Below, in pieces: positions 2,509 through 47,250 of a stretch of DNA of 64,000 nucleotides. The stretch spans positions 310,001 to 374,000 of the forward strand of contig NZ_JAFKRH010000031.1 of the NCBI RefSeq assembly GCF_019038465.1, in the 5' to 3' direction. The position numbers and the translations under genes are program-made. Source of the stretch: Synechococcus sp. CCY 0621. Lineage in GTDB: Bacteria > Cyanobacteriota > Cyanobacteriia > PCC-6307 > Cyanobiaceae. Positions within the stretch are counted from its first letter, which is position 1. Each line of letters opens with the position of its first letter. The notes under the pieces are model-generated. The model was given only the letters and a program-made list of their open reading frames with translations, was not told the DNA's origin and made no database searches.

Positions 2509-3483
2509 ATGAACCTGCATGACCCGGGACACGGCCTGCGCCGCGTCAACACCACCGATTTTCTGTCCCTGATCGCCCTGGCCCTTTTCGTCACCTACGG
2601 GGTGACGCTGCTGAACACGATTCTGCCGCCGGCGATCCTGCAACCGGCCTGGCTTGTCACCCTGATCAGCGCCCTGCTCGACAGTGCCCCCCTCGCGCTG
2701 TTGGGCCTGGGTCTGGTGCATCTGGTGGCCTATCTGGCGCCTGACGACATCCAGATCCAGGCCCGCCGCGATGCCATTGCCCGGTGGGCGGTCGGGGCCG
2801 TCATCGGCTTCCTGCTGCTGTTCCCCCTGCAAATCGCTTCCGCCGTTCAGGGCCATGGGCTGGTGGCCCGCAGCCAGAACAGCGCCATGCAGGTGGCGGC
2901 CGAACGCGCCCAGGAGTTCCAGCGCGCCATTGATGGCGCCACCTCGATTGAAGACCTGCAGCAGAGACTTGCGACCCTGCAGGGACCCGGGCTCCAGTTG
3001 ACCGAGCAGCGCCAATCCCTGACAGCGCTCAAATCAATGCTCTCCAAGCGACTGGAAGAGTCCATCAGGAGCTCATCGGATGTCATTCGCTCGCCCTGGA
3101 ATCCCAGTGTCTGGGCGATCATTCAGCGCACGCTGCGGGTGTGCCTTCTCGCCGCGGTCTACGCCCTGGCCTTCGCGGCTGGTAGCCAGCGTCGGGCCTG
3201 CGATCTCTCGCTGCTACGGGAGGCCCAGATGCACTGGGATCTCACCAGAGTCAGGATGGTTCGGCGGCGTCAACAGCGCCTCGAGGTCAGGCAGAGGCAG
3301 CAGCAGTTACAGAAGGAGGAAGCACTGGAAGCCCGGGCGCTGAGGAGGCGGCAAGCCGACGCCCCGGTCCCCTCACCACCGACGGTCACGGTGACGGCCT
3401 TACGGGCTCTCCCTGCCGACATGGCGTATTTCCACCAGCTCAGCGTGGACGGGGAGCAAAAGCAGGTCGGGGAACTCACCTGA
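2509..3483 (+). CDS. HpsJ-like membrane protein (exosortase-associated type)
   Basis: Integral membrane protein of 324 residues from the ATG at 2509; an in-frame ATG at 2461 would add 16. There are hydrophobic segments near residues 18-35, 46-75 and 97-115, then a long charged helical region, a further hydrophobic segment around residue 205, and a Gln/Arg-rich coiled coil. The arrangement, with the motif PPAILQPAWLVTLISALLD before the second segment, resembles cyanobacterial HpsJ proteins, linked in hormogonium polysaccharide work and often found with cyanoexosortase systems. Its position facing a protein with a PEP-CTERM-like tail supports a role in that export or surface-sorting pathway. 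The exact function is not known. No strong ribosome binding site decides the start. Confidence 0.6.
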   Translation: MNLHDPGHGLRRVNTTDFLSLIALALFVTYGVTLLNTILPPAILQPAWLVTLISALLDSAPLALLGLGLVHLVAYLAPDDIQIQARRDAIARWAVGAVIGFLLLFPLQIASAVQGHGLVARSQNSAMQVAAERAQEFQRAIDGATSIEDLQQRLATLQGPGLQLTEQRQSLTALKSMLSKRLEESIRSSSDVIRSPWNPSVWAIIQRTLRVCLLAAVYALAFAAGSQRRACDLSLLREAQMHWDLTRVRMVRRRQQRLEVRQRQQQLQKEEALEARALRRRQADAPVPSPPTVTVTALRALPADMAYFHQLSVDGEQKQVGELT

Positions 3484-3499
3484 AGCCTGCGGCTGGTTG

Positions 3500-4261
3500 T
3501 CAGTCGGCAGGGCCAGAGTCCGCTGGCCCATCGGCATTGCCCAGCAGGGTTTCCTCCTCCAGAAGCATGTTGAAACGCAGCAGGTCGGTGTCCTTGAGCT
3601 GCTGCCGGCTGCTCACACCCAGATGCTTCTCGAGAAAACGGCGACCCATGGCGCCGTCCCAGCCCAGCTGCTGCAGCAAGAGGTTGCACTGATCGAGCAG
3701 GTCGGCCCGGCGCAAAGGTACGGCCACCGTGGCGGGATCGCAGCCGGGCTCAAGGGCCTCGATCGCCTGCAGGTAGGCGATCAGGTCGGCATAGACGGTG
3801 ATGCGGTCGCGGCTGGGGTGGCCAAAGGAACGCTGCAGATAAATGGCTTCCCGATCCCTGTCCCATCCCAGCCTCCGCATCTGCAGATCCAGGTGGGTCA
3901 GTTCGGCGCTCCAATCCTGGGGGTCCTCCTCCTGGCTCACCGGCGTGGGCGGCGATTCAGGCGATGGCGGCGGCTCCGGAGTGGGCGTCGGGGCTGGTGT
4001 TGGCTTCGGGGCTTCAGCTGCAGGCGGTGACAGCGGCTTTGGGGCTGAAGCCGTGGCCGGGGCCACAGCCTGCCGCGGCGGGTGCGGGGTGCCCGTGCTC
4101 TGGAGGCTGGCCAGCAGGCGCGTCCTGGCCCGGTCCTCCGCTTCCTCAGCATCGCCCGCCTCCCCCAGGGCACTGCCCAGGAAGCGCTCCCCTTCGCGGG
4201 CCGAGACCAGCACAACGCGGCGCCCGCCGTCGCAGTGCAGCAGTCGGACCTGAAGTTGCAT
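3500..4261 (-). CDS. Conserved hypothetical protein with proline-rich linker
   Basis: Protein of 253 residues, not recognised as a named family. It has three parts: a short N-terminal domain of about 55 residues (MQLQVRLLHCDGGRRVVLVSA), a Pro/Ala/Thr-rich linker at about 58-108, and a helical C-terminal domain of about 130 residues that includes RLGWDRDREAIYLQRSFGH and QLGWDGAMGRRFLEKHLG. The two 'LGW...FL.../YL..' segments look like related half-repeats. There is no signal peptide or membrane segment. It lies divergent from the TerC-family gene with only 75 bases between starts and converges with the HpsJ-like gene. Probably a lineage-specific cyanobacterial protein. Confidence 0.8.
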   Translation of the reverse strand: MQLQVRLLHCDGGRRVVLVSAREGERFLGSALGEAGDAEEAEDRARTRLLASLQSTGTPHPPRQAVAPATASAPKPLSPPAAEAPKPTPAPTPTPEPPPSPESPPTPVSQEEDPQDWSAELTHLDLQMRRLGWDRDREAIYLQRSFGHPSRDRITVYADLIAYLQAIEALEPGCDPATVAVPLRRADLLDQCNLLLQQLGWDGAMGRRFLEKHLGVSSRQQLKDTDLLRFNMLLEEETLLGNADGPADSGPAD

Positions 4262-4336
4262 GGGAGGGGTCAGGCGGGGCCGGCAGTCTTTCTAGAGTGT
4301 CCCTTTGCAGGCGCCAGGGCCGAGCGAACGCCAGGA

Positions 4337-5122
4337 ATGGAAGTGGAATCGGTGGAGAGCCTCACACCCCTGCTGCAGCAGGCGGACCAGTGGGGCGAGG
4401 TGCTGCTGCTGCTGCCGCTGCTGGTGGGGCTTGAGGCGGTGCTCTCCGCCGACAACGCCATCGCCCTGGCCGCCATCTCCCGGCGGCTGCATGACCCGGC
4501 GCGGCAACGCCAGGCCCTGAACCTTGGCCTGGTGCTGGCCCTGGTCTTCCGACTGGGCCTGATCGCCCTGGCCAGCTTCGTGCTCAATTTCTGGCCGCTG
4601 CAACTGCTGGCCTCTGCCTATCTGCTCTGGCTCTGCGGGCGCCACTTGCTCGGCCAGGACGAGGACAAGGACGACGTTGCCGAAGGTGTGAAGACAAGCC
4701 TTTCCGCCCAGGTCCCGAGCTCCCACGAGTCCGGCCATCCCCATCACGGCGCCTCCCTGGCGTCGATCGTGGCGACCCTGGCCCTCACCGATCTGGCCTT
4801 CTCACTCGACAGTGTCTCTGCGGCGGTGGCGGTCACCGACCGGCTTCCCCTGGTGATGGCCGGCGGGGTGATCGGCATCATTGCCCTGCGGCTGACGGCC
4901 GAACTGTTCCTGCGCTGGCTGGAGATCTACCCCCATCTGGAAACCGCCGGCTATCTGGCGGTGGGTCTGGTGGGCCTGCGGCTGCTGCTGCGCCTGCTGC
5001 TGCCGGCGGTGGAGGTGCCGGAATGGGCCCTGCTGCTGGTGGTGGGCGCCTTGTTCGCCTGGGGCTTTTCCCTGCGCACGCCCCCCTCCCCCCTGCCCGG
5101 GCAGGGCAGCGGCGACGCCTGA
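4337..5122 (+). CDS. TerC/YceF-family integral membrane protein
   Basis: Membrane protein of 261 residues with about seven hydrophobic segments. The TerC-family signatures are visible: EAVLSADNAIALAA in the first helix region and the matching ALTDLAFSLDSVSAA in the second half. Both carry the conserved acidic residues thought to bind a metal in this family. A charged His-rich loop (GHPHHG) lies between the halves. TerC-type proteins are linked to tellurite resistance and, in several bacteria, to Mn2+ export during exoenzyme metallation; the substrate here is not shown by sequence. The ATG at 4337 follows CCAGGA and gives the usual family start, although the frame is open upstream. It is followed after 14 bases by a DUF6464-like gene. 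Confidence 0.85.
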   Translation: MEVESVESLTPLLQQADQWGEVLLLLPLLVGLEAVLSADNAIALAAISRRLHDPARQRQALNLGLVLALVFRLGLIALASFVLNFWPLQLLASAYLLWLCGRHLLGQDEDKDDVAEGVKTSLSAQVPSSHESGHPHHGASLASIVATLALTDLAFSLDSVSAAVAVTDRLPLVMAGGVIGIIALRLTAELFLRWLEIYPHLETAGYLAVGLVGLRLLLRLLLPAVEVPEWALLLVVGALFAWGFSLRTPPSPLPGQGSGDA

Positions 5123-5136
5123 GGGCGGCCGGAACG

Positions 5137-5484
5137 ATGCGGATCGAACTGCGCCAGATCGACTCGGACCAGCTGATCACCTGCATCGAGATCGAGAACC
5201 TCAGCGATGTCCCCCATCCCGGCCGCTGGCTGACCACTGGCGATCGCAGCTTTCTGGTGCTGCAGCGACGGCACCGTTACCGGCTGCGGCAGGGCCGCTA
5301 CGAACTGACGGCCGTGGCGCTGCAGGTGAAGTCCCAGCAGCAACCGGCCGATGCGCTCTGGTGGGACGGGCGCTGGGTGATCGGCGACCCCCACTGCCGC
5401 TTCAACGCCCGCAGCCCCCTGCTGCGCTGCGCCGTGCTGCCCGAAGGCCCCTGCGAGCGCTGCAGCCACCGCAGCCCCCGCTGA
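5137..5484 (+). CDS. DUF6464-like small protein
   Basis: Protein of 115 residues. The segments RSFLVLQRRHRYRLRQGRYEL and WVIGDPHCRFNARSPLLRCAV, followed by PEGPCERC, match what I recall of the cyanobacterial DUF6464 family. A C-terminal cluster of four Cys, including CERC, could bind a metal. There is no signal peptide or membrane segment. It lies 14 bases downstream of the TerC-family gene on the same strand and is likely co-transcribed. Function is unknown. The ATG at 5137 was chosen because it follows GGCCGGAAC closely and gives the usual family length. Confidence 0.75.
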   Translation: MRIELRQIDSDQLITCIEIENLSDVPHPGRWLTTGDRSFLVLQRRHRYRLRQGRYELTAVALQVKSQQQPADALWWDGRWVIGDPHCRFNARSPLLRCAVLPEGPCERCSHRSPR

Positions 5485-5664
5485 AGCGATCCACCCCACC
5501 AGCCGGTCCTAGGCTGGGGCCCAACTCTGTCTTCGCGCCCGATCACCGCCCCTTCCTCCAGGCCCCAGGCCAAGGTCATCCGCAGCCGACCCAGCGGCAA
5601 CGGTTCCGCCCCCGCCCCTGAACCGCTCACACCGAGCCACACCGCCACCGGCCTGAATCCGCCA

Positions 5665-6921
5665 GTGGCTGGCCTGGCAACGGATTTTGCCGTCCTGGGG
5701 TTATCCGAGCCGATCCTCAAGGCCGTGGCCGCCAAGGGCTACAGCAGCCCATCCCCGATCCAGCTGCAGTGCATCCCGGCGGTGCTGGCCGGCCACGACG
5801 TGATGGCCGCCGCCCAGACGGGCACCGGCAAGACGGCCGGTTTCACCCTGCCGATGCTGGAGCGGCTGCGCCACGGCCCCCACGCCCGTGCCGGTGTGGT
5901 GCGCGCCCTGGTGCTGACTCCCACCCGGGAGCTGGCGGCCCAGGTGGCCGAAAGCGTCACCGCCTACGGCCGCTACCTGGATCTGCGCTCCGATGTCGTT
6001 TTCGGCGGGGTGAGTGCCAACCCCCAGATGCAGCGGCTGCGCAAGGGCGCCGACGTGCTGGTGGCCACCCCCGGCCGCCTCATGGACCTGCACCAGCAGA
6101 ACGCCCTGCGGCTCGACCGCGTGGAGATCCTGGTGCTGGACGAGGCCGACCGCATGCTCGACATGGGCTTCATCCGCGACATCCGCCGGATCCTGTCCCT
6201 GATGCCGGCGAAGCGCCAGAACCTGCTGTTCTCCGCCACCTTCTCCAGCGAGATCCGCCGCCTGGCGACCGGCCTGCTGCACCAACCGGTGCAGTTGCAG
6301 GCCAGCCCGGAGAACCAGGCCACCCCCCTGGTCGACCAGGTGATCCATCCCTGCGACATGGACCGCAAGGGGGATCTGCTCAGCCATCTGATCCGCACCA
6401 ACGACTGGCGCCAGGTGCTGGTCTTCTCCCGTACGAAGCACGGCGCCAACCGGCTGGCGGAGCGGCTTGAGAAGGAGGGACTGGGGGCGGCGGCGATCCA
6501 CGGCAACAAGAGCCAGGGGGCCCGCACCCGGGCGCTGGCGGAGTTCAAGAGCGGCGAGGTGCGGGTGCTGGTGGCCACCGACATCGCCGCCCGCGGCATC
6601 GACATCCACCAGCTGCCCCACGTGGTCAACCTCGACCTGCCCAACGTGGCTGAGGACTATGTGCACCGCATCGGCCGCACCGGCCGGGCAGGTCAGAACG
6701 GCCATGCGATCTCCCTGGTGGCGGCCGAAGAGCATGAGCTGCTGCGGGCGATCGAGCGCCTGGTCGGCTCCCCCCTGCCCCGCCAGGAGGTGTCGGGCTT
6801 CGAACCCACCGTGCTGTCCGCCCCGCCGCTGGATCTCAGCGGCGGCCGGGGCCGCCGGAGCCCGGGGCCCCGCCAGGGCCAGGGCCACGAGCGGGGTCGG
6901 CGCCGCACTGGCTCCCGCTGA
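5665..6921 (+). CDS. DEAD-box ATP-dependent RNA helicase, RhlE-like
   Basis: Helicase of 418 residues that unwinds RNA duplexes. The motifs are in order: Q motif GYSSPSPIQ, Walker [20 protein letters not shown] in [16 protein letters not shown] in LFSATF, then the second RecA domain with [19 protein letters not shown] and [11 protein letters not shown] short Arg/Gly-rich tail (residues about 390-418) is typical of the RhlE/CrhR group and may contact RNA. In cyanobacteria CrhR-type helicases are cold- or redox-induced, but no control signal is visible here. The start is a GTG at 5665; there is no in-frame ATG before the Q motif, and a longer N-terminus cannot be excluded. Confidence 0.95.
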
Positions 6922-40080: not shown

Positions 40081-40184
40081 GGGCGGGTGCGGCCTCAAGA
40101 ACGATGACAGCGGCGGCAGGCCGTGACCCGTGGGCGGCCGGGCTGGCTAGGGCGGGGGTCGGTTCCCTTCTTCTCCGCGACACC

Positions 40185-42536
40185 ATGACCGCCCCGAAGA
40201 AAGCCGCCGCCACCGGCAGCGCCAGCACCCCGGCCGCGCGGGGGCAGGCCCGCACGGTGATCTACTGCCACGGGATCTCCAACATGCCCCCCGAGGGGGT
40301 GCTGCGCTCGGAGTGGGACCGGGCCCTGTTCGGCGCCGACCAGGGGGAGCGCACCCGCATGGCTTACTGGGTCGACCGGGAGCGGTACCCGGAGACGGCG
40401 GGCTTCTCCACCCGGGCGATCGGCGAGGACCGGGCGACGCTGCAGCCGGAGGCGCAGGGGCTTCTGGCCGCCTCGATCCAGGAGAGCGACGCGCCGGCGG
40501 AATCGCAGGCGTTCGTGGACGCCCTGACGGCGCAGCTGGAGGCGGCCGCCCAGACGGCGGCCCATCGGGGGGCTCCGATGGGCGGCCCGGCGACGCTCTC
40601 GGTGGAGGCCAAGGGGCTGTGGAGCCCGGTGACGGCGATGTTCACCCAGGCGTTCCTGGCGGATGTGAACGATTTCCTGTTCAACAAGACGAAGCGCCAG
40701 CGGATGGTGCAGACGGTGAAGGACCGGATCAGCACCGGCGGCGGCCCCTTCGTGGTGGTCGGCCACAGCCAGGGGAGCATGGTCACCTACCAGGCGCTGA
40801 TGGAGCTGGGCGCCGCCCTGGAGGTGGATCTGTACGTCACGATCGGCTCACCGCTGGGACTGCCCCAGGTGACCGACGTGCTGCAGACATGGCACGGCAA
40901 AAAGCTGCCGATCCCAGCCGGTGTGAAGCGCTGGGTGAACATCGCCCAGGACGGCGACATCGTCTGCCTCGACCAGAGCCTGGCCGACGAGTACAGCGCC
41001 GCCGGCAAGCCGAAGATCATCGATGAACGGGTGATGGGGGTGGTGTGGCCGCCCAGCAAGGCCCATTCCGCCAGCCGCTATCTGTCGCGCCAGTCGACCC
41101 AGGAGACGGTGATGGCGGCACTGGACCGCTCCCGCTTCCAGCCCGTGAGTCCGATGACGGTGGCCCGCAGCCTCGCCGATGCCCTGGATGTGGAGGCCAC
41201 GGCCCGGGTGCCGGTGCTGATCGAGCTGGCGGATCGCTCCACGGCAGGCCCGGAGGGGGGCGATTCGCTCCAGAAGGCACGGGAGGCGGTGCTGGAGTGG
41301 ATCCGGGCGCATGTGCTGCAGGGTCCGATCACCGCCGAGACGGTGTTTCTGGAGGACCAGCTGGATCGCTACGTGGCGGTGAACCTGACCCGAGCCGAGG
41401 TGGAGACGCTGGCGGGGGCGATGGGCCGGCAGTACGGCAACACCTCGCCGGCGGTGTACCGGATGTTCAGCAACAGCCGCAAGAAGGCGCTGATGCACGA
41501 TTCGATCCACACGGTGCAGGCCCGCACCGCCCAGCTGGGCTACAACGCCTGCGGCCAGGGCATCACCTGGGCCGTGCTCGACACCGGCATCGACAGCCGC
41601 CATCCCCACTTCCACAACCCGAGCTTCGCTCCGGACGGCACGATCGCCGCCGAGTGGGACTGCACAGAGCGGGGGCCGGTGCAGAAGGGCAGCGGCAACG
41701 ATGCCAACGGCCACGGCACCCATGTGGCGGGGATCATCGCCGGCGGTCTGCTCTCGGTGGGCGGCGAGGGCGGCCCCGACCTGCTGGCGATGGCCCCCCG
41801 GGCCCGGATCGTGAGCTACAAAGTGCTGGCCGACAACGGCGGCGGCTACGACGCCTGGATCATCAAGGCGATCGACCACATCTGGAAGCAGAACCAGGAG
41901 GGACGGCGCCTGGCGATCCAGGGGGTGAACCTGAGCCTGGGAGGGCCGTTCGATCCGGCCAGCTTCGGCTGCGGCGATTCACCCCTGTGCGCCTCCCTGC
42001 TGCGGCTGGTGCGCCAGGGGGTGCTGGTGGTGCTGGCGGCGGGCAACGAGGGCAGCGGCGACATCGTGGTGGATGGCTTCAGCGCCACGCGCTCGTTTGA
42101 TCTGTCGATCGGCGATCCGGCCAACCTGGATGAGGCGATCGCCGTGGGCTCGGTGCACCCGACCCTGCCGCACCGCTACGGCACCTCCTACTTTTCCTCG
42201 CGTGGTCCCACCGCCGATGGCCGCCTCAAGCCCGACGTGGTGGGTCCGGGAGAAAAGATCCTCTCCTGCCGCAGCAGCAGCGACCCCAAACGCTCCCACA
42301 GCCGGGACAAAGGCAAGAGCCTCGATGAGCTCTACGTGGCCCTTTCCGGCACCAGCATGGCGGCGCCGCACATCTCCGGCCTGCTGGCCGCGTTCCTCTC
42401 GGTGCGCACCGAATTAATCGGCTATCCCGACCGGGTGAAGCGGATCCTGCTGGAGCACTGCACCGACCTGCAACGGGACCGCTACCACCAGGGAGCGGGC
42501 CTGCCGAATCTGTCGAAGATGTTGCTGGAGACCTGA
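40185..42536 (+). CDS. Fusion of alpha/beta-hydrolase and subtilisin-like (S8) protease
   Basis: Protein of 783 residues with two enzyme domains and no signal peptide. The N-terminal part (about 22-300) is an alpha/beta hydrolase: oxyanion segment TVIYCHGISN and nucleophile elbow VVVGHSQGSM with Ser195; candidate acid and base are Asp256/258 and His294. The C-terminal part (about 440-783) is a peptidase S8: AVLDTGID (Asp466), NGHGTHVAG (His510), AAGNEG (Asn621) and SGTSMAAPH (Ser724), a complete triad. A linker of about 100 residues (340-440) with VAVNLTRAEVETLAGAMG looks like a propeptide-type domain. Codon use is host-like. The substrate is unknown; I am sure of both domains, not of the pathway. 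Confidence 0.9.
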   Translation: MTAPKKAAATGSASTPAARGQARTVIYCHGISNMPPEGVLRSEWDRALFGADQGERTRMAYWVDRERYPETAGFSTRAIGEDRATLQPEAQGLLAASIQESDAPAESQAFVDALTAQLEAAAQTAAHRGAPMGGPATLSVEAKGLWSPVTAMFTQAFLADVNDFLFNKTKRQRMVQTVKDRISTGGGPFVVVGHSQGSMVTYQALMELGAALEVDLYVTIGSPLGLPQVTDVLQTWHGKKLPIPAGVKRWVNIAQDGDIVCLDQSLADEYSAAGKPKIIDERVMGVVWPPSKAHSASRYLSRQSTQETVMAALDRSRFQPVSPMTVARSLADALDVEATARVPVLIELADRSTAGPEGGDSLQKAREAVLEWIRAHVLQGPITAETVFLEDQLDRYVAVNLTRAEVETLAGAMGRQYGNTSPAVYRMFSNSRKKALMHDSIHTVQARTAQLGYNACGQGITWAVLDTGIDSRHPHFHNPSFAPDGTIAAEWDCTERGPVQKGSGNDANGHGTHVAGIIAGGLLSVGGEGGPDLLAMAPRARIVSYKVLADNGGGYDAWIIKAIDHIWKQNQEGRRLAIQGVNLSLGGPFDPASFGCGDSPLCASLLRLVRQGVLVVLAAGNEGSGDIVVDGFSATRSFDLSIGDPANLDEAIAVGSVHPTLPHRYGTSYFSSRGPTADGRLKPDVVGPGEKILSCRSSSDPKRSHSRDKGKSLDELYVALSGTSMAAPHISGLLAAFLSVRTELIGYPDRVKRILLEHCTDLQRDRYHQGAGLPNLSKMLLET

Positions 42537-42539
42537 TGT

Positions 42540-42677
42540 GTTCACGGGTCCGTGAACCACGGCTACCATCCTGCTGCAAAAGGATTGAACAGGCTTGCCC
42601 GTGGGGTTTTCATCTATCGCTGCAGGTTGTTGGCTTGTGGTTCACGGAATGGGCTGGGCGACAGGAGGGGTTCACGG
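42540..42677. repeat. Four copies of GTTCACGG at the left border of the cassette region
   Basis: GTTCACGG occurs at 42540-42547, inverted at 42550-42557 (with the first it makes a perfect eight-base inverted repeat), and directly at 42640-42647 and 42670-42677. Two copies extend to GTGGTTCACGG. They lie between the protease-fusion stop and the first cassette gene. They could be recombinase-arm or repressor sites; the function is not known. Confidence 0.65.
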
Positions 42678-42696
42678 AAACCGTCTAAGAACAAGT

Positions 42697-42722
42697 TTGT
42701 CTGTGATTTCTTCTGATATACT
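42697..42722 (+). promoter_or_regulatory. Candidate promoter ahead of the first cassette gene
   Basis: TTGTCT and the extended -10 element TG-A-TATACT (42714-42722) lie 31 bases before the ATG of the cupin gene. The spacing between the two boxes is only 14 bases, so the extended -10 is probably what counts. All following cassette genes point the same way, so this promoter could drive the whole array. Confidence 0.4.
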
Positions 42723-42752
42723 TCCACTCCATGGTGACTAAGGGCAATTTCC

Positions 42753-43151
42753 ATGGGTGCACGCGACATTATTGCTCATCCAGTGCATCTGGGTCTTGGC
42801 GCAACTGCCGAGGTTGAACCATTATTCACCGGTGCAATGGATTGGTACGAGGAATACGTCAACCGGCATGCCGAGGATGGCGCTGAGGGGCGTCTCGTAA
42901 GCATGCACAAATTCAACGTGTCGTGGGAAATGTGGGAAATGCACCCGCATGGAAGCGAAGTCGTTCTATGCACGTCCGGATCAATGATCCTCTACCAAGA
43001 GGATCCTGATGGTGCCCGTTCGGCCGTAACTTTGGGTCCTGGCCAGTACGCAGTCAATGCTCCTGGCACCTGGCACACGGCTGACGTGGAGCACGAGGCA
43101 ACAGCAGTGTTCATTACCGCAGGATTGGGCACTAAGCACCGTCCGCGATAA
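42753..43151 (+). CDS. Cupin-domain protein (cassette 1)
   Basis: Protein of 132 residues. The single cupin barrel has FNVSWEMWEMHPHGSEVVLC, GSMILYQED and AVNAPGTWHTADVEHEA, with His residues in the first and last segments that could bind a metal. It resembles small one-domain cupins of unknown substrate. The ATG at 42753 follows AAGGGCAATTTCC, a modest ribosome binding site. Its composition is closer to average than the next two cassette genes. It is the first gene of the array and is followed by attC-like site 1 after 62 bases. Confidence 0.8.
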   Translation: MGARDIIAHPVHLGLGATAEVEPLFTGAMDWYEEYVNRHAEDGAEGRLVSMHKFNVSWEMWEMHPHGSEVVLCTSGSMILYQEDPDGARSAVTLGPGQYAVNAPGTWHTADVEHEATAVFITAGLGTKHRPR

Positions 43152-43213
43152 GAAGTTTGTCTTACACATGCGGAATTTGTTCCATGGTCGATTCAGGCGA
43201 GAAATCAAGTGCC

Positions 43214-43302
43214 GTATAACATCAAGATACACCTGACACGCCTCCTAGGGGGCTTTGATTTCTACCTGAGATTCTTTCATTCAGGTGATCTTGGCGTTGG
43301 GC
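43214..43302 (+). other. attC-like recombination site 1
   Basis: Right core GTTGGGC at 43296-43302; the left core is GTATAAC at 43214-43220, one base outside the consensus. In the folded strand CAAGAT pairs with ATCTTG and CACCTGA with TCAGGTG, with one extra A left out, as expected of attC extrahelical bases. Length 89 bases. It follows the cupin gene. Confidence 0.8.
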
Positions 43303-43347
43303 AGGCCTAAGCTGTAGAGGTGACTTGGCGGATTTGGCAGCTCTTTG

Positions 43348-43869
43348 ATGGAATGGTTAACGCTGCTATCTCTACTAGCTGCAGTCACTGCCGCTTATCT
43401 TTCTTGGCGCCAACTTCGTACGCAGCAAGAACGATGGGCGATTGATGACGCTCGCATTCGCCCTAGAGGGTATGTAAGCTCTAGTGAGGTAATCTTAGAT
43501 GAAGGCTGGTTTCACGGAGTATGGCAAGTCACTAATCGCGCGCCCTTCGAGATCGAGGTGATTGAGGTTGTTGCGACATTCCCCGAGTCTCTAGAGATTG
43601 CCGAGCTTGAGCCTGGCTCTGATGGACCTGTACAGCTCATGAGAGCCATAGATCGAGGGAAGATTCTTAAAGTAAACCAGATTATGCCTCCCTATGAATC
43701 TCCAGTGAAGTTCGGCATTATCGGCTCAAACTTTATGTTTCGCATCTCAGGGTCGCCAAAGTCTAATCGAGGCAGGTCGATTCGCTTGCAGATTAACTGC
43801 AGAGAGCTTGATAACCCGAATCAAACATACTCGGTCAAGTGTGAAGCAATTGTCCCTCAGCAACTATAG
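43348..43869 (+). CDS. Membrane-anchored hypothetical protein (cassette 2)
   Basis: Protein of 173 residues. One hydrophobic segment at residues 3-20 (WLTLLSLLAAVTAAYLSW) is followed by a soluble domain of beta-rich type (VWQVTNRAPFEIEVIEVVA, PPYESPVKFGIIGSNFMF). No family was recognised. Base use is clearly more AT-rich than the chromosome, supporting transfer. An in-frame TTG directly before the ATG at 43348 is not favoured. The gene starts 46 bases after attC-like site 1 and ends 86 bases before site 2, the normal position for a one-gene cassette. Confidence 0.75.
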   Translation: MEWLTLLSLLAAVTAAYLSWRQLRTQQERWAIDDARIRPRGYVSSSEVILDEGWFHGVWQVTNRAPFEIEVIEVVATFPESLEIAELEPGSDGPVQLMRAIDRGKILKVNQIMPPYESPVKFGIIGSNFMFRISGSPKSNRGRSIRLQINCRELDNPNQTYSVKCEAIVPQQL

Positions 43870-43954
43870 CCGCCTACAAGCGTCTAAGCACGTCGTAATA
43901 GTTTCCAGTTTTCATGCTCGGCGTACTTCAAAGAAGCTTACTGCTTGTTGGCCT

Positions 43955-44044
43955 GTTCAACACCACCATCCACCTGGGCCGCCTCCGAATGGTCTGTGTG
44001 TATCCCTCGATCTGTCTGCGGCCAGGTGATGGCGAGCGTTGGGC
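43955..44044 (+). other. attC-like recombination site 2
   Basis: Left core GTTCAAC at 43955-43961 and right core GTTGGGC at 44038-44044. The arms pair as CCATC with GATGG, ACCTGG with CCAGGT and CCGC with GCGG, leaving two extra bases on the left arm. Length 90 bases. It lies after the cassette 2 gene. Confidence 0.85.
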
Positions 44045-44346
44045 TGCTTCATGCCTTAGACACGAGTTTTGGGAACATTTCCAAAGAATCTCGACCTAGT
44101 CGATTGCGGTGATATGTCATCCAATGATTCAAATACGGTCAAGGACCTTCCTTGAATGATTGGAGAGCATGTTAAGTCAAATCAAGGCGAAGGCTGTGCC
44201 AGTACAGGAACTGAAGCCGAGTTAAAAGGCAGTTGAGGCTTTATCTATACAGGAGATACAGGAATGCGGAAGTCGCCCTAAGCATCGGGCCAGACTACGG
44301 CTGATGACCACCTCTAGAGCTGGTACAGTTACCAGGAGCCGAGAAT
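44045..44346. other. Cassette 3 leader, no gene seen
   Basis: About 300 AT-rich bases between attC-like site 2 and the cassette 3 gene. Several short frames are open but none has a good start or recognisable product. A GTTAAGT that fits the loose core consensus occurs at about 44169, but no matching left arm was found, so I do not call another site. Cassettes normally have short leaders, so this may be a degenerate gene or a toxin-type element I cannot see. Confidence 0.5.
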
Positions 44347-44685
44347 GTGCCTCGACTTCGGCCCTCATCCCAACGTTCATACAATACGACCAACATCAGG
44401 ATGATCTCATTCTTGCAAAGGATTGGAAGTTTAGCGTTCGTCGCCGGTCTTATTGCTCTTGGTCTCCGGTTCTGCTCAGGATATAATCCAGGAATAGTGG
44501 AATCAATAACAAAGCCTGGATGTCTTGTGAAAGGGAATGTATCCATTGAATCCGGCAGGAGAATTTACCATGTAGTTGGCATGGAGGATTATGAGATCAC
44601 AAAGATCAGCCCTGAGAAGGGAGAGCAGTGGTTCTGCACCGAACAAGAGGCGATCTCGGCTGGATGGATTAGAGCACCCAGATAG
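44347..44685 (+). CDS. Sunset-domain-like small protein (cassette 3)
   Basis: Protein of 112 residues starting at GTG 44347 (AGGAG lies about eight bases upstream); an ATG at 44401 would give 94. A hydrophobic segment (LAFVAGLIALGLRF) is followed by a small Cys-containing domain: GCLVKGNVSIESGRRIYHVVG, KISPEKGEQWFC and EQEAISAGWIRAPR. This pattern (KGN, YHV-x-G, ERWFC, AGWR) is the sunset domain, often at the end of secreted nuclease-like proteins and of unknown function. Here it stands alone behind a membrane or signal segment. It is AT-rich like its neighbour and ends 8 bases before attC-like site 3. Confidence 0.75.
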   Translation: MPRLRPSSQRSYNTTNIRMISFLQRIGSLAFVAGLIALGLRFCSGYNPGIVESITKPGCLVKGNVSIESGRRIYHVVGMEDYEITKISPEKGEQWFCTEQEAISAGWIRAPR

Positions 44686-44693
44686 GTCGAACA

Positions 44694-44793
44694 GTCCAAC
44701 ATCCCACTACAGCAGATGGGAAGCGCTACTGCTTGATCCGAATAAAGTTCTTGAACTTGACATTTCTGCCCGCGGCTGAGTGGGGTGTTAGGC
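44694..44793 (+). other. attC-like recombination site 3
   Basis: Left core GTCCAAC at 44694-44700 and right core GTTAGGC at 44787-44793. CCCACT pairs with AGTGGG and CAGC with GCTG, with an extra A between them on the left. Length 100 bases. It begins 8 bases after the sunset-like gene. Confidence 0.85.
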
Positions 44794-44833
44794 GTCGGAA
44801 TCCACTACTCAGCCATTCCGTCATTGGAGAACC

Positions 44834-45451
44834 ATGATCGGACCAGACCGTGCGGCATTCACCGCTGACCCCATTGGATACAGTGGCCTTGCCTGGCATA
44901 AGTGGCAGACGGCGTTACTGTTCGCTGGCATGATCGAACGGCCAAGCGAAGAGCCAACGAGGGAAGACCTTAAGTCACCGATTCTTTGGCTCAGTCAAGC
45001 AAATGCACTTAGCGAAGCGGCAAAGGTACTTGTTCAGTTCGAGCCGACGTGGGAATCGATGCCTCTGTCTATCCGTGGAATGTGCGATTGCCAGTACTCC
45101 GCAGTCGCGCTCATGCTTGTTGGCTATAGCCTCGAAACATGCCTCAAAGCAATGCACATATTGAGGCATGGCGCCGAAGAGTTCATCGCGCGGGAGAAAG
45201 ACTATTTTCACCACGACTTGGTTGAACTTGCCGAGTTCCTGCCGCAGGTTACTGACAAAGAGCGAGCTACGCTCAAGGCGCTAACGCATTTCACAACCTG
45301 GGCCGGTCGATATCCGGACCCGGGCTCGCGACGGATTGATCATGCTGAAGAAGTGTTCGCTCTTTCCGAGAGCCATCAAATCTCTGGACACGATCTCTTC
45401 GCGCTTGCAGCCCGTGTCATGAAACATGTTCAGACCTTCACTGCGGAGTAA
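44834..45451 (+). CDS. Helical HEPN-like hypothetical protein (cassette 4)
   Basis: Protein of 205 residues. It is almost wholly helical, with ALMLVGYSLETCLKAMHIL and YFHHDLVELAEFLPQ followed by LKALTHFTTWAGRYPDPGS. The motif of a helix carrying a Glu/Lys pair, then HDL, then a wrapped helix ending WAGRYP is like HEPN-type proteins often seen in accessory DNA, but the canonical R-x4-6-H site is not seen. Strong ribosome binding sequence GGAGAACC lies before the ATG at 44834. Starts 41 bases after site 3 and ends 15 bases before site 4: a standard one-gene cassette. Confidence 0.75.
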   Translation: MIGPDRAAFTADPIGYSGLAWHKWQTALLFAGMIERPSEEPTREDLKSPILWLSQANALSEAAKVLVQFEPTWESMPLSIRGMCDCQYSAVALMLVGYSLETCLKAMHILRHGAEEFIAREKDYFHHDLVELAEFLPQVTDKERATLKALTHFTTWAGRYPDPGSRRIDHAEEVFALSESHQISGHDLFALAARVMKHVQTFTAE

Positions 45452-45466
45452 GCTCTTGTCGCCGAC

Positions 45467-45535
45467 GCCTAACCCCTCGGTCAACCGGAGTGCCAATGGC
45501 AGGCCACCAGCGCCCGGTTACCTCGAACGTTAGGC
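45467..45535 (+). other. attC-like recombination site 4
   Basis: Perfectly matched cores GCCTAAC (45467-45473) and GTTAGGC (45529-45535), the classic 59-base-element ends. TCG and AACCGG pair with CGA and CCGGTT after spacer bases, with an extra C on the left arm. Length 69 bases, close to the 60-base type. It is the clearest of the four. Confidence 0.9.
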
Positions 45536-45568
45536 CACGTTAGCGGTTCCATAAAGGAGTAAAGCCAC

Positions 45569-45985
45569 ATGTCAGAGGAGAACAAAAACATCATCCGCCG
45601 ACTCATCGCGGAAGGATGGAACGCGCGCAATTTCGCAGTGATTGATGAGCTTTGCTCGGCCACCTTCACCATGCACGATCCATCGGCTCCCCATCTTGCG
45701 AACGGGCCAGAGGCCGCCAAGGCCTACATCGGAGCGCTCGTCGCAGCGTTTCCCGACCTGCACATGCAGGTCCACGATCTGCTCGGAGAAGCAGACCGAG
45801 TCTCCCTGCGCTGGTCGGCCGAAGGCACCCACCAAGGGGAATTCAACGGAATTCCACCAACAAACAATCGCGTCTGCGTGTCCGGTCAGGCGATCTACCG
45901 CATCGCGAACGGCAAGATTGAGGAAGACTGGATCATCGTGGATACCTACGGGATGCTTCAGCAGCTCGGCGTGATTCCAGGCTGA
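45569..45985 (+). CDS. SnoaL-like ester cyclase family protein
   Basis: Protein of 138 residues of the SnoaL/NTF2 fold. The start is MSEENKNIIRRLIAEGWN, and further segments are LHMQVHDLLGEADRVSLRW, GIPPTNNRVCVSGQAIYRI and GKIEEDWIIVDTYGMLQQL, which are typical. The ATG at 45569 has a strong ribosome binding site, AAAGGAG. It follows the last attC-like site but has none of its own after it, so it is either a last cassette that lost its site or a chromosomal gene. GC content is between the cassette genes and the P450. Substrate unknown. Confidence 0.85.
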   Translation: MSEENKNIIRRLIAEGWNARNFAVIDELCSATFTMHDPSAPHLANGPEAAKAYIGALVAAFPDLHMQVHDLLGEADRVSLRWSAEGTHQGEFNGIPPTNNRVCVSGQAIYRIANGKIEEDWIIVDTYGMLQQLGVIPG

Positions 45986-46038
45986 CCGAGCAACATCGGG
46001 GAAGATCTCGATACCGTCATCCGTGAGTGTCATCAACC

Positions 46039-47250
46039 ATGACGACAGACCTGTTCAGCCCGGCGATGCTGGTCGATCCCTACCCGACCTACGCCGAGTT
46101 GCGCCGGACCGACCCGGTCCACTGGCATGAACCATTCGGGGCCTGGGTGCTGACGCGCTACGACGACGTGGTGGCGGCGACGCACGACCCCCGGCTGCGC
46201 TCCGATCGCGCCGGCGGCATGGGCGAGCGGGCCGGACGCCCCGAACTGCAGCCCCTCTTCGAGGTCATCGGGGCCCAGATGAACATCACCAATCCGGAGC
46301 GCCACCACCGGCTGCGCGCCCTGGTGGCCAAGGTGTTCACGCCACGGGCCGTGGAGGCCCAGCGGTCGGCCGTTGAAGCCATGGTTGGCGAACTGCTGGA
46401 TCGGCTGCCGGAGCAGGGCCGCTTCGATGTGATCGCCGACTTCGCCTTCCCGCTGCCGGCCCGGGTCATCGCCCGTCTGCTCGGCCTGGAAACTGGAGAG
46501 CTGGATCAACTGAAGCGCTGGTCGGACGACTTTTCGGCGATCTTCGGCACCGATCCCTCCGCCGTGACCCCCGAGCAGTACCAGCGGGCCCTGCAGAGCA
46601 CCCACGAGCTGACCGCGTTCTTCCGCGCCGAATTCGAAAAGCGCCGGACCTTGCCCGGCGACGATCTGCTGAGCCTGCTGGTGCACGCCGACATTGACGG
46701 CGATCGGCTCAGCGAGACGGAGCTGATCGCCAACGCCAATCTGCTCCTGGCGGCCGGCCACGAGACCACCACCCACCTGATCGGCAACGGCCTGCTGGCC
46801 CTGCTGCGCCACCCCGATCAGCTGCAGCTGCTGCTGGATGACCCGTCCCTGATTCCCAGCGCGATCGAGGAGTTTCTCCGCTACGACGGCACCGTCCAGT
46901 TCATGTACCGCGAGGCGGGGGAGGATCTGACGATCGGCGGCCGCTCGATCCGCAAGGGCCAGCTGGTGTACCTGATGTTCGCGGCCGCCAATCGCGACCC
47001 GGACCGCTTCCCCGACCCCGACCGGCTCGACGTGCGCCGCAGGCCCGACGTGCACCTGGCGTTCGGCCATGGACCCCATGTCTGCCTCGGGGCGGCCCTG
47101 GCACGGATGGAGGCCCAGGTCGCCTTCACGGCGCTGCTGCGGCGCTGCTCAGGACTGCGCCTCACCGGTGAGCCTTTGGCGTATCAGGACAACCTGGAGC
47201 TGCGTGGGCTCAAGGCGTTGCCCGTGATCTTCCAGTACCGTTCGGCCTGA
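46039..47250 (+). CDS. Cytochrome P450, bacterial class
   Basis: Monooxygenase of 403 residues. The oxygen-activation helix LLLAAGHETTTHL, the E-x-x-R pair in EEFLRYDG, and the heme loop AFGHGPHVCLGAALARME with the Cys ligand are all present. Other family segments are the substrate-side QMNITNPERHHRLR. It is a soluble class I-type P450 needing ferredoxin-type electron donors, not in this window. The substrate cannot be told. The ATG at 46039 was preferred over a GTG at 46027. GC content is host-like, so it probably lies outside the cassette array. Confidence 0.9.
   Translation: MTTDLFSPAMLVDPYPTYAELRRTDPVHWHEPFGAWVLTRYDDVVAATHDPRLRSDRAGGMGERAGRPELQPLFEVIGAQMNITNPERHHRLRALVAKVFTPRAVEAQRSAVEAMVGELLDRLPEQGRFDVIADFAFPLPARVIARLLGLETGELDQLKRWSDDFSAIFGTDPSAVTPEQYQRALQSTHELTAFFRAEFEKRRTLPGDDLLSLLVHADIDGDRLSETELIANANLLLAAGHETTTHLIGNGLLALLRHPDQLQLLLDDPSLIPSAIEEFLRYDGTVQFMYREAGEDLTIGGRSIRKGQLVYLMFAAANRDPDRFPDPDRLDVRRRPDVHLAFGHGPHVCLGAALARMEAQVAFTALLRRCSGLRLTGEPLAYQDNLELRGLKALPVIFQYRSA

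Follow-up and report, generated by a model that had tools for sequence, protein, structure and literature searches.

Synechococcus sp. CCY 0621 is a picocyanobacterium of the family Cyanobiaceae whose genome assembly comprises 3.23 Mb in 101 contigs. The stretch analysed here, referred to as the window, consists of 64,000 nucleotides of one of these contigs (C31; NZ_JAFKRH010000031.1, 310001–374000), and positions are given within it. Between a gene for an S8 peptidase and genes for a SnoaL-like protein and a cytochrome P450, the window carries a series of small genes, each followed by an attC site, and this series is headed by an attI site (Table 1). From its sequence, the segment 42540–45535 is probably a chromosomal integron platform minus its own integrase gene (intI), in which attI has been retained and heads four cassettes in the same orientation.

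Table 1. Features of the integrase-less integron platform and its flanks (R1, attC covariance model; E-values of attC 1–4 refer to a search space of 96 kb)
Feature	Position	Strand	Details
S8 peptidase gene (left flank)	40104–42536	+	Pfam Peptidase_S8, 1.1e-45; stop codon 3 bases before attI
attI without integrase	42540–42697	+	crossover GTT 42695–42697; palindrome 42540–42558; repeats 42638–42649 and 42669–42682
Cassette 1	42696–43296	+	cupin-like gene 42753–43151; Cupin_2 5.5e-05, under Pfam cut-off
attC 1	43214–43302	+	89 bases; right core GTTGGGC; R1 54.9 bits, E 3.2e-12
Cassette 2	43297–44038	+	gene 43345–43869; apparent N-terminal membrane segment, by eye
attC 2	43955–44044	+	90 bases; right core GTTGGGC; R1 64.6 bits, E 9e-15; top-scoring site
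Cassette 3	44039–44787	+	gene 44347–44685; sunset domain NF051437, 33.3 bits (cut-off 27)
attC 3	44694–44793	+	100 bases; right core GTTAGGC; R1 44.1 bits, E 2.3e-9
Cassette 4	44788–45529	+	gene 44834–45451, weakly HEPN-like; HEPN 0.0057, under Pfam cut-off
attC 4	45467–45535	+	69 bases (short type); right core GTTAGGC; R1 29.7 bits, E 1.5e-5; lowest score
SnoaL-like gene (right flank)	45569–45985	+	
Cytochrome P450 gene (right flank)	46027–47250	+	

The four attC sites, which lie within 2.3 kb, are real, and the locus is confirmed as an integron-type array. With an attC pairing scanner (threshold 32), sites 1 to 4 scored 33.5, 42.5, 41.5 and 36.0, respectively; among 1000 dinucleotide shuffles of 42537–45985, five gave at least one match at 33.5 or above and none gave four. 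The covariance model R1 was built from 24 attC sites beside the intI genes of relatives, none of them from the CCY 0621 genome; these sites came from 13 of 20 fetched intI surroundings (12 genomes), the other seven being without attC at the scanner threshold. Two-sided changes were found in 12 of the 20 stem pairs of its alignment. R1 scored all four sites (29.7–64.6 bits) and, with default filters, gave nothing else in the whole window at E ≤ 5; with the filters off (42001–47000) the best other + strand stretch reached only 6.7 bits (E 0.88). The same unfiltered search returned minus-strand echoes at three of the sites (16.5, 11.4 and 8.1 bits), and since these are weak the sites are oriented on the + strand, as are the genes. 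An earlier note, made from the sequence alone, had described four attC sites of these lengths, cores and orientation, and the scanner, the shuffles and R1 agree with it, the covariance scores showing that the sites are not noise. The left cores of all four end in AAC, and each site follows one small + strand gene. Among the 20 model pairs, non-standard pairs number three in attC 1, one each in attC 2 and attC 3 and two in attC 4, and single-site DNA folding was mildly better than that of shuffles (z −1.1 to −2.6, minus strand). Rfam found no attC family in 42500–46100, its sole match at E ≤ 1 being an L31 leader (18.8 bits, below the gathering score). On the R46 plasmid, used as a yardstick, R1 recovered two of the three + strand attC sites that the scanner had placed beside cassette genes and gave no additional match at E ≤ 0.5 in 50 kb. 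On a Marinobacter plasmid stretch (L068) that has cassette-like genes and whose annotation includes an integron integrase, neither the scanner at threshold 32 nor R1 found an attC site, so both miss some attC types.

In the relatives studied, cassettes are located beyond the 3′ end of intI, and a GTT core closes the stretch that separates the first of them from the intI stop codon. Behind intI in one group of these relatives is a conserved attI of ∼165 bases, with which 42540–42697 of the window aligns. An attI model (R2), made from five sites that are all intI-linked and all from relatives, matched 42540–42694 with 49.8 bits (E 4.5e-14, 188 kb searched) and gave no match at E ≤ 1 in 245 kb of negative-control DNA, which comprised plasmids, S8 loci from outside the Cyanobacteria and five S8 loci lacking attI. 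The element thus starts at 42540, with attI, and not at 42753 as the earlier note had it. The note was borne out in that the DNA is AT-richer, the guanine-plus-cytosine content being 51% in 42698–45535 vs 68% across the window, and in that no intI lies in the window, where the integrase profile TIGR02249 has no match; an IntI remnant was likewise not found within 3.5 kb upstream of attI. The note had classed the locus as an integron-type gene cassette array without integrase (CALIN), and it does resemble a CALIN in having at least two attC sites close together with no intI adjoining the array, here in a cyanobacterial chromosome. It differs in being headed by attI, which points to an integron that lost its intI and not to a bare attC cluster. 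Of the features of a complete integron, the attI head and the same-orientation cassettes are present and an intI in cis is absent.

A comparison of strains was made within a sample of 42 genomes of the genus, 16 of which (CCY 0621 included) have an orthologue of the S8 gene. The attI lies beside this gene in 11 of the 16, again including CCY 0621 (partial in G163), and in the aligned strains it begins a few bases past the S8 stop codon, with the exception of G005, where the distance is ∼130 bases. Pairwise identity across ten strains is highest in the attI repeats (81–94%), falls to 57% in the spacers and drops to 30% past the core. The GTT core is kept in eight of ten aligned attI sites, being lost in G226 and G198, and also in G163; after GTT several unrelated sequences follow, those of CCY 0621 and G187 being alike, and those of G286 and G280 alike for ∼11 bases. 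Sister strains have retained attI and differ in their cassettes, with similarity ending at the G|TT crossover point. Other DNA occupies this attI in G208, G226, G198, G113 and G286, and R1 detected attC in four of these five (none in G226). All four cassette genes are also present in G187, and with attC folds, of which R1 found attC 1–3 and the scanner alone attC 4; had the genes been there without such folds, the earlier proposal would have fallen. Between CCY 0621 and G187, the cassette block differs by 10.2 substitutions per kb, as against 61.8 in the 3′ part of the S8 gene (41501–42536), 55.9 in attI, 57.8 in the SnoaL region (45536–45985) and 86.2 in the P450 region (45986–47250). The divergence switches within 42637–42721, around the attI core, and within 45511–45563, around the end of attC 4. 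As the block is less diverged than its flanks, the cassettes common to the two strains are read as postdating the divergence of the flanks; they may have arrived cassette by cassette or in a single-block transfer. The SnoaL-like and P450 genes are assigned to the flank and not to the cassettes because they show flank-like divergence from G187 and the switch falls at the end of attC 4. Two further observations concern other strains. In Synechococcus sp. RedBA-s (L185, 1395–8771) an S8 relative (3402–5783) stands amid seven same-strand attC sites, as if it were a cassette. In G005 a partial attI (L178, 2348–2392; model positions 2–46, 21.4 bits) lies on the contig of the P450 orthologue, separate from the contig that holds the S8-linked attI.

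Integrase genes are widespread in the family, and next to attI sites they are seen in graded stages of erosion. Searches with TIGR02249 gave matches at E ≤ 1e-30 in 73 of 300 family genomes (60 above the curated cut-off) and in 36 of the 42 genus genomes (28 above it). Cyanobacteria have already been listed among the phyla with integrons (PMC8618304), a cyanobacterial attC model is one of 11 published taxon-specific models (PMC8352920), and integrons or attC sites of Cyanobacteria are in print in several places (PMC9668308, PMC8618304, PMC8352920); the earlier note's view that such an array is unusual in a picocyanobacterium can thus not be upheld. In the CCY 0621 genome no match is above the cut-off, and at E ≤ 0.001 none lies outside contigs C15 and C21. 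On C15, where attI and attC lie downstream of intI, the gene is disrupted by two frame changes and three in-frame stop codons. The C21 match was rejected as an IntI; by eye, its sequence and a neighbouring IS91-like transposase make it look like a tyrosine recombinase belonging to an IS91-like element. Of 59 attI sites, five have an intact intI directly upstream, the C15 site has a full-length but broken copy, five have C-terminal remnants of ∼134, 65, 40, 33 and 24 residues (one each), and 48 have no detectable intI.

The scan of the remainder of the CCY 0621 genome, suggested in the earlier note, revealed further attI and attC sites besides the broken intI. R2 matches were obtained on C15 (78.5 bits), C35 (68.3 and 23.2), C26 (39.5), C16 (35.9) and C10 (31.9), along with a 40-base attI fragment on C21 (15.8 bits). 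At E ≤ 0.01, R2 matched in 40 of the 42 genus genomes, with 1–25 matches each, a count that includes antisense echoes of the palindrome. Five genus genomes were surveyed closely, yielding 41 attI-like sites after five echoes had been dropped, some of them partial (e.g. the C21 fragment). An intI lies within 400 bases upstream of five of the 41 and of none of the other 36. Within 10 kb, attC sites lie downstream on the same strand at 34 of the 41, upstream at two and on the opposite strand at none; conversely, for 78 of 98 attC sites an attI is found no more than 15 kb upstream. Clustering of the upstream flanks gave six attI locus clusters besides the intI-linked one, with 11, 5, 5, 4, 4 and 3 members. 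Where no intact or near-full intI directly precedes attI (53 sites), the core GTT is present at 45. A further attI model (R3), applied to one or two contigs from each of ten genomes of other genera, gave 2–5 matches in seven of them and none in the three of genus g34. Integrase-less arrays are ordinary in the family, and the platform of the window is one among several in its genome and among many in the genus. As a separate observation, contig C46 of CCY 0621 (L089, 5464–15812) carries six same-orientation attC sites with no R2 attI in the fetched stretch; this array may be a plain CALIN or else be headed by an attI of a different type.

Complete cassettes were found to be shared between platforms. 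In G090, 838 bases of the intI-linked array recur as the first cassette at an orphan attI with 99.76% identity, and in G163 the same is true of 628 bases with 96.0% identity; in both strains the shared cassette ends at the GTTAG of an attC, and an attC recognized by R1 closes each orphan copy. The first cassette on C35 of CCY 0621 matches a cassette of the G163 array at 97.3% over 620 bases. Such shared cassettes match what an IntI acting in trans would leave.

A different kind of shared DNA was noticed at the attI core in G090 (L058, L144 and L150), namely 99.9% identical copies of an IS91-like element that encodes, by eye, a tyrosine recombinase and an IS91-type transposase. A similar gene pair follows the attI fragment on C21 of CCY 0621 (L006, 6619–8859). 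By eye, a hairpin resembling that of attC precedes GTTAG at the far end of the element, which may enter attI in the manner of a cassette.

The history proposed here is that each platform probably arose as an intI gene with attI behind it and that intI would then have decayed, with attI and the array persisting. Cassettes would have been inserted at the G|TT of attI, for which an integrase produced at another place in the cell is the simplest agent; IntI would thus act in trans on orphan attI sites. For the platform in the window, the C15 intI before its breakage is a possible source. On balance we lean slightly towards a distributed integron in this genus, whereby one to few intI genes may serve several to ∼10 scattered attI platforms with short arrays of their own, the orphan attI repeats being kept under selection despite intI erosion, so that platforms outlive integrases and cassettes move between them. 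With the C15 source broken and no intact intI detected in the CCY 0621 genome, the array in the window is probably frozen at present and would change again only if an integrase were acquired.

Several observations weigh against this proposal. Recombination itself was not observed, and one cassette may have reached two platforms independently, from outside. The 2.47 kb stretch that is common to three attI sites in G090 is the IS91-like element and not a proven cassette. No same-strand attC lies within 10 kb downstream of seven of the 41 attI-like sites; 20 of the 98 attC sites, including all six on C46, are without attI within 15 kb upstream; and the core GTT is missing at eight of the 53 sites with no intact or near-full intI ahead of them. 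At the locus itself, attI was not found beside the S8 gene in five of the 16 genomes that have this gene, the left end of cassette 1 (42696–42701, TTTGTC) departs from TTRRRY, and a search for a cassette promoter (Pc) gave no sigma-70 type match on the + strand of 42500–45600; cyanobacterial promoters may depart from this consensus.

The strongest of the alternatives, which we nonetheless regard as rather unlikely, is that the platforms are fossils, frozen since the loss of the integrase, and that strains differ through deletions and through homologous exchange of entire loci and not through IntI acting in trans. It would account for the CCY 0621 genome, with no IntI above the cut-off and only a broken copy on C15; the four cassettes common to CCY 0621 and G187 could then be a single-block transfer, and the loss of the core in G226, G198 and G163 would be expected. 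It sits less well with the eight aligned attI sites that keep GTT before several unrelated sequences, with attI repeats that are conserved while the spacers drift, and with complete cassettes common to intI-linked and orphan attI within G090 and within G163. It is less probable still that attI is itself a mobile unit that has spread to many sites without intI. As many as 25 R2 matches in a single genome (G262), together with a short stretch resembling the tail of intI upstream of many copies (by eye), would suit such a unit; the left edges, however, are variable, in the graded lengths of the intI remnants as in the distance from the S8 stop codon to attI, which is far greater in G005 than elsewhere, and both fit deletions. 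Plain CALIN formation by off-target insertion at a non-attI site (attG type), with the attI similarity irrelevant, is highly improbable even though CALINs at conserved positions have been described, and attG insertion cited, for Xanthomonas (PMC12444791), given that attI homology, ∼158 bases long in the window, recurs at this locus in 11 of 16 strains, that R2 and the alignments show an insertion point homologous to attI where attG is by definition non-homologous, and that G005 seems by eye to have an intI-tail-like stretch upstream of attI, where tblastn found no intI remnant.

The distributed integron suggested above has partial parallels in known systems. CALINs have been proposed to originate through intI loss, off-target insertion or rearrangement (PMC8618304). 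The sedentary chromosomal integron at the ilvD locus of Xanthomonas is similar in that intI is inactivated or deleted in many strains while an array remains at a fixed place, with CALINs elsewhere that are said to be mobilisable in trans (PMC12444791). It differs in that the part of that account drawn on here describes one intI locus and mentions no attI for the CALINs, whereas several attI-headed arrays per chromosome are found in the present system. In the structurally atypical integron of Treponema (PMC3607928), whose IntI groups with that of a Synechococcus sp., intI is likewise codirectional with the cassettes and attI lies between the 3′ end of intI and the cassettes; the many integrase-less attI copies per genome belong to the present system. 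Archaeal integrons also have attI directly downstream of intI, and CALINs are frequent among them, orphan attI sites not being described in the portion of that study used here (PMC9668308). No publication was found on several attI platforms per chromosome, or on orphan or multiple attI sites with IntI in trans, in a literature search whose scope left out preprints and most subscription journals.

The calling of CALINs looks for attC and intI, and because of this, attI-headed platforms without integrase would be filed as CALINs; attI-headed arrays as such would be missed by tools that search for intI and attC only. Beside a conserved attI, the intI-loss route to a CALIN can be read in stages. 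If IntI does act in trans on many attI sites, the places of first-position uptake would no longer number one per integrase, and the capacity of an integron would have to be counted differently; such action is directly testable in cultured strains.

The cargo of the array had been described in the earlier note as cupin, membrane, sunset and HEPN-like. The sunset domain is above its cut-off and the membrane-like character is seen by eye, and the cupin and HEPN similarities fall short of Pfam cut-offs. The cassette 2 protein matched no Pfam, NCBIfam or PADLOC family, and PADLOC had no match for any of the four cargo proteins or for the SnoaL-like protein. No attC was found by R1 between or after the SnoaL-like and P450 genes within the window. 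The boundaries of cassette 1 were deduced from the attI core and the R′ of its attC; its TTTGTC start is also present in G187, as a mutated end or a remnant.

A proteobacterial origin of the cassettes is not supported, as relatives of the weakly HEPN-like protein (Burkholderia, Pseudoalteromonas) and of the cupin (Qipengyuania) are without attC by scanner and R1. Relatives of the cassette 4 protein occur at 49–50% identity in two plasmid-collection records. Its attC shares 84% blastn identity over 56 bases with a Polaromonas plasmid; Polaromonas and Aminobacter stretches resembling attC 4 contain no attC by either method. On the Pseudoalteromonas plasmid (L204, 4145–4234), a DUF3265-annotated open reading frame follows the HEPN-like relative, with no attC there by either model; in Vibrio, DUF3265 reading frames often lie on attC sites. 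In a named genome collection, relatives of the S8 gene were found at 25 loci, five from other phyla (41–48% identity) and 20 cyanobacterial, the latter in Cyanobium, Synechococcus, Aphanothece, one ‘Microcystis elabens’ and one metagenome-assembled genome.

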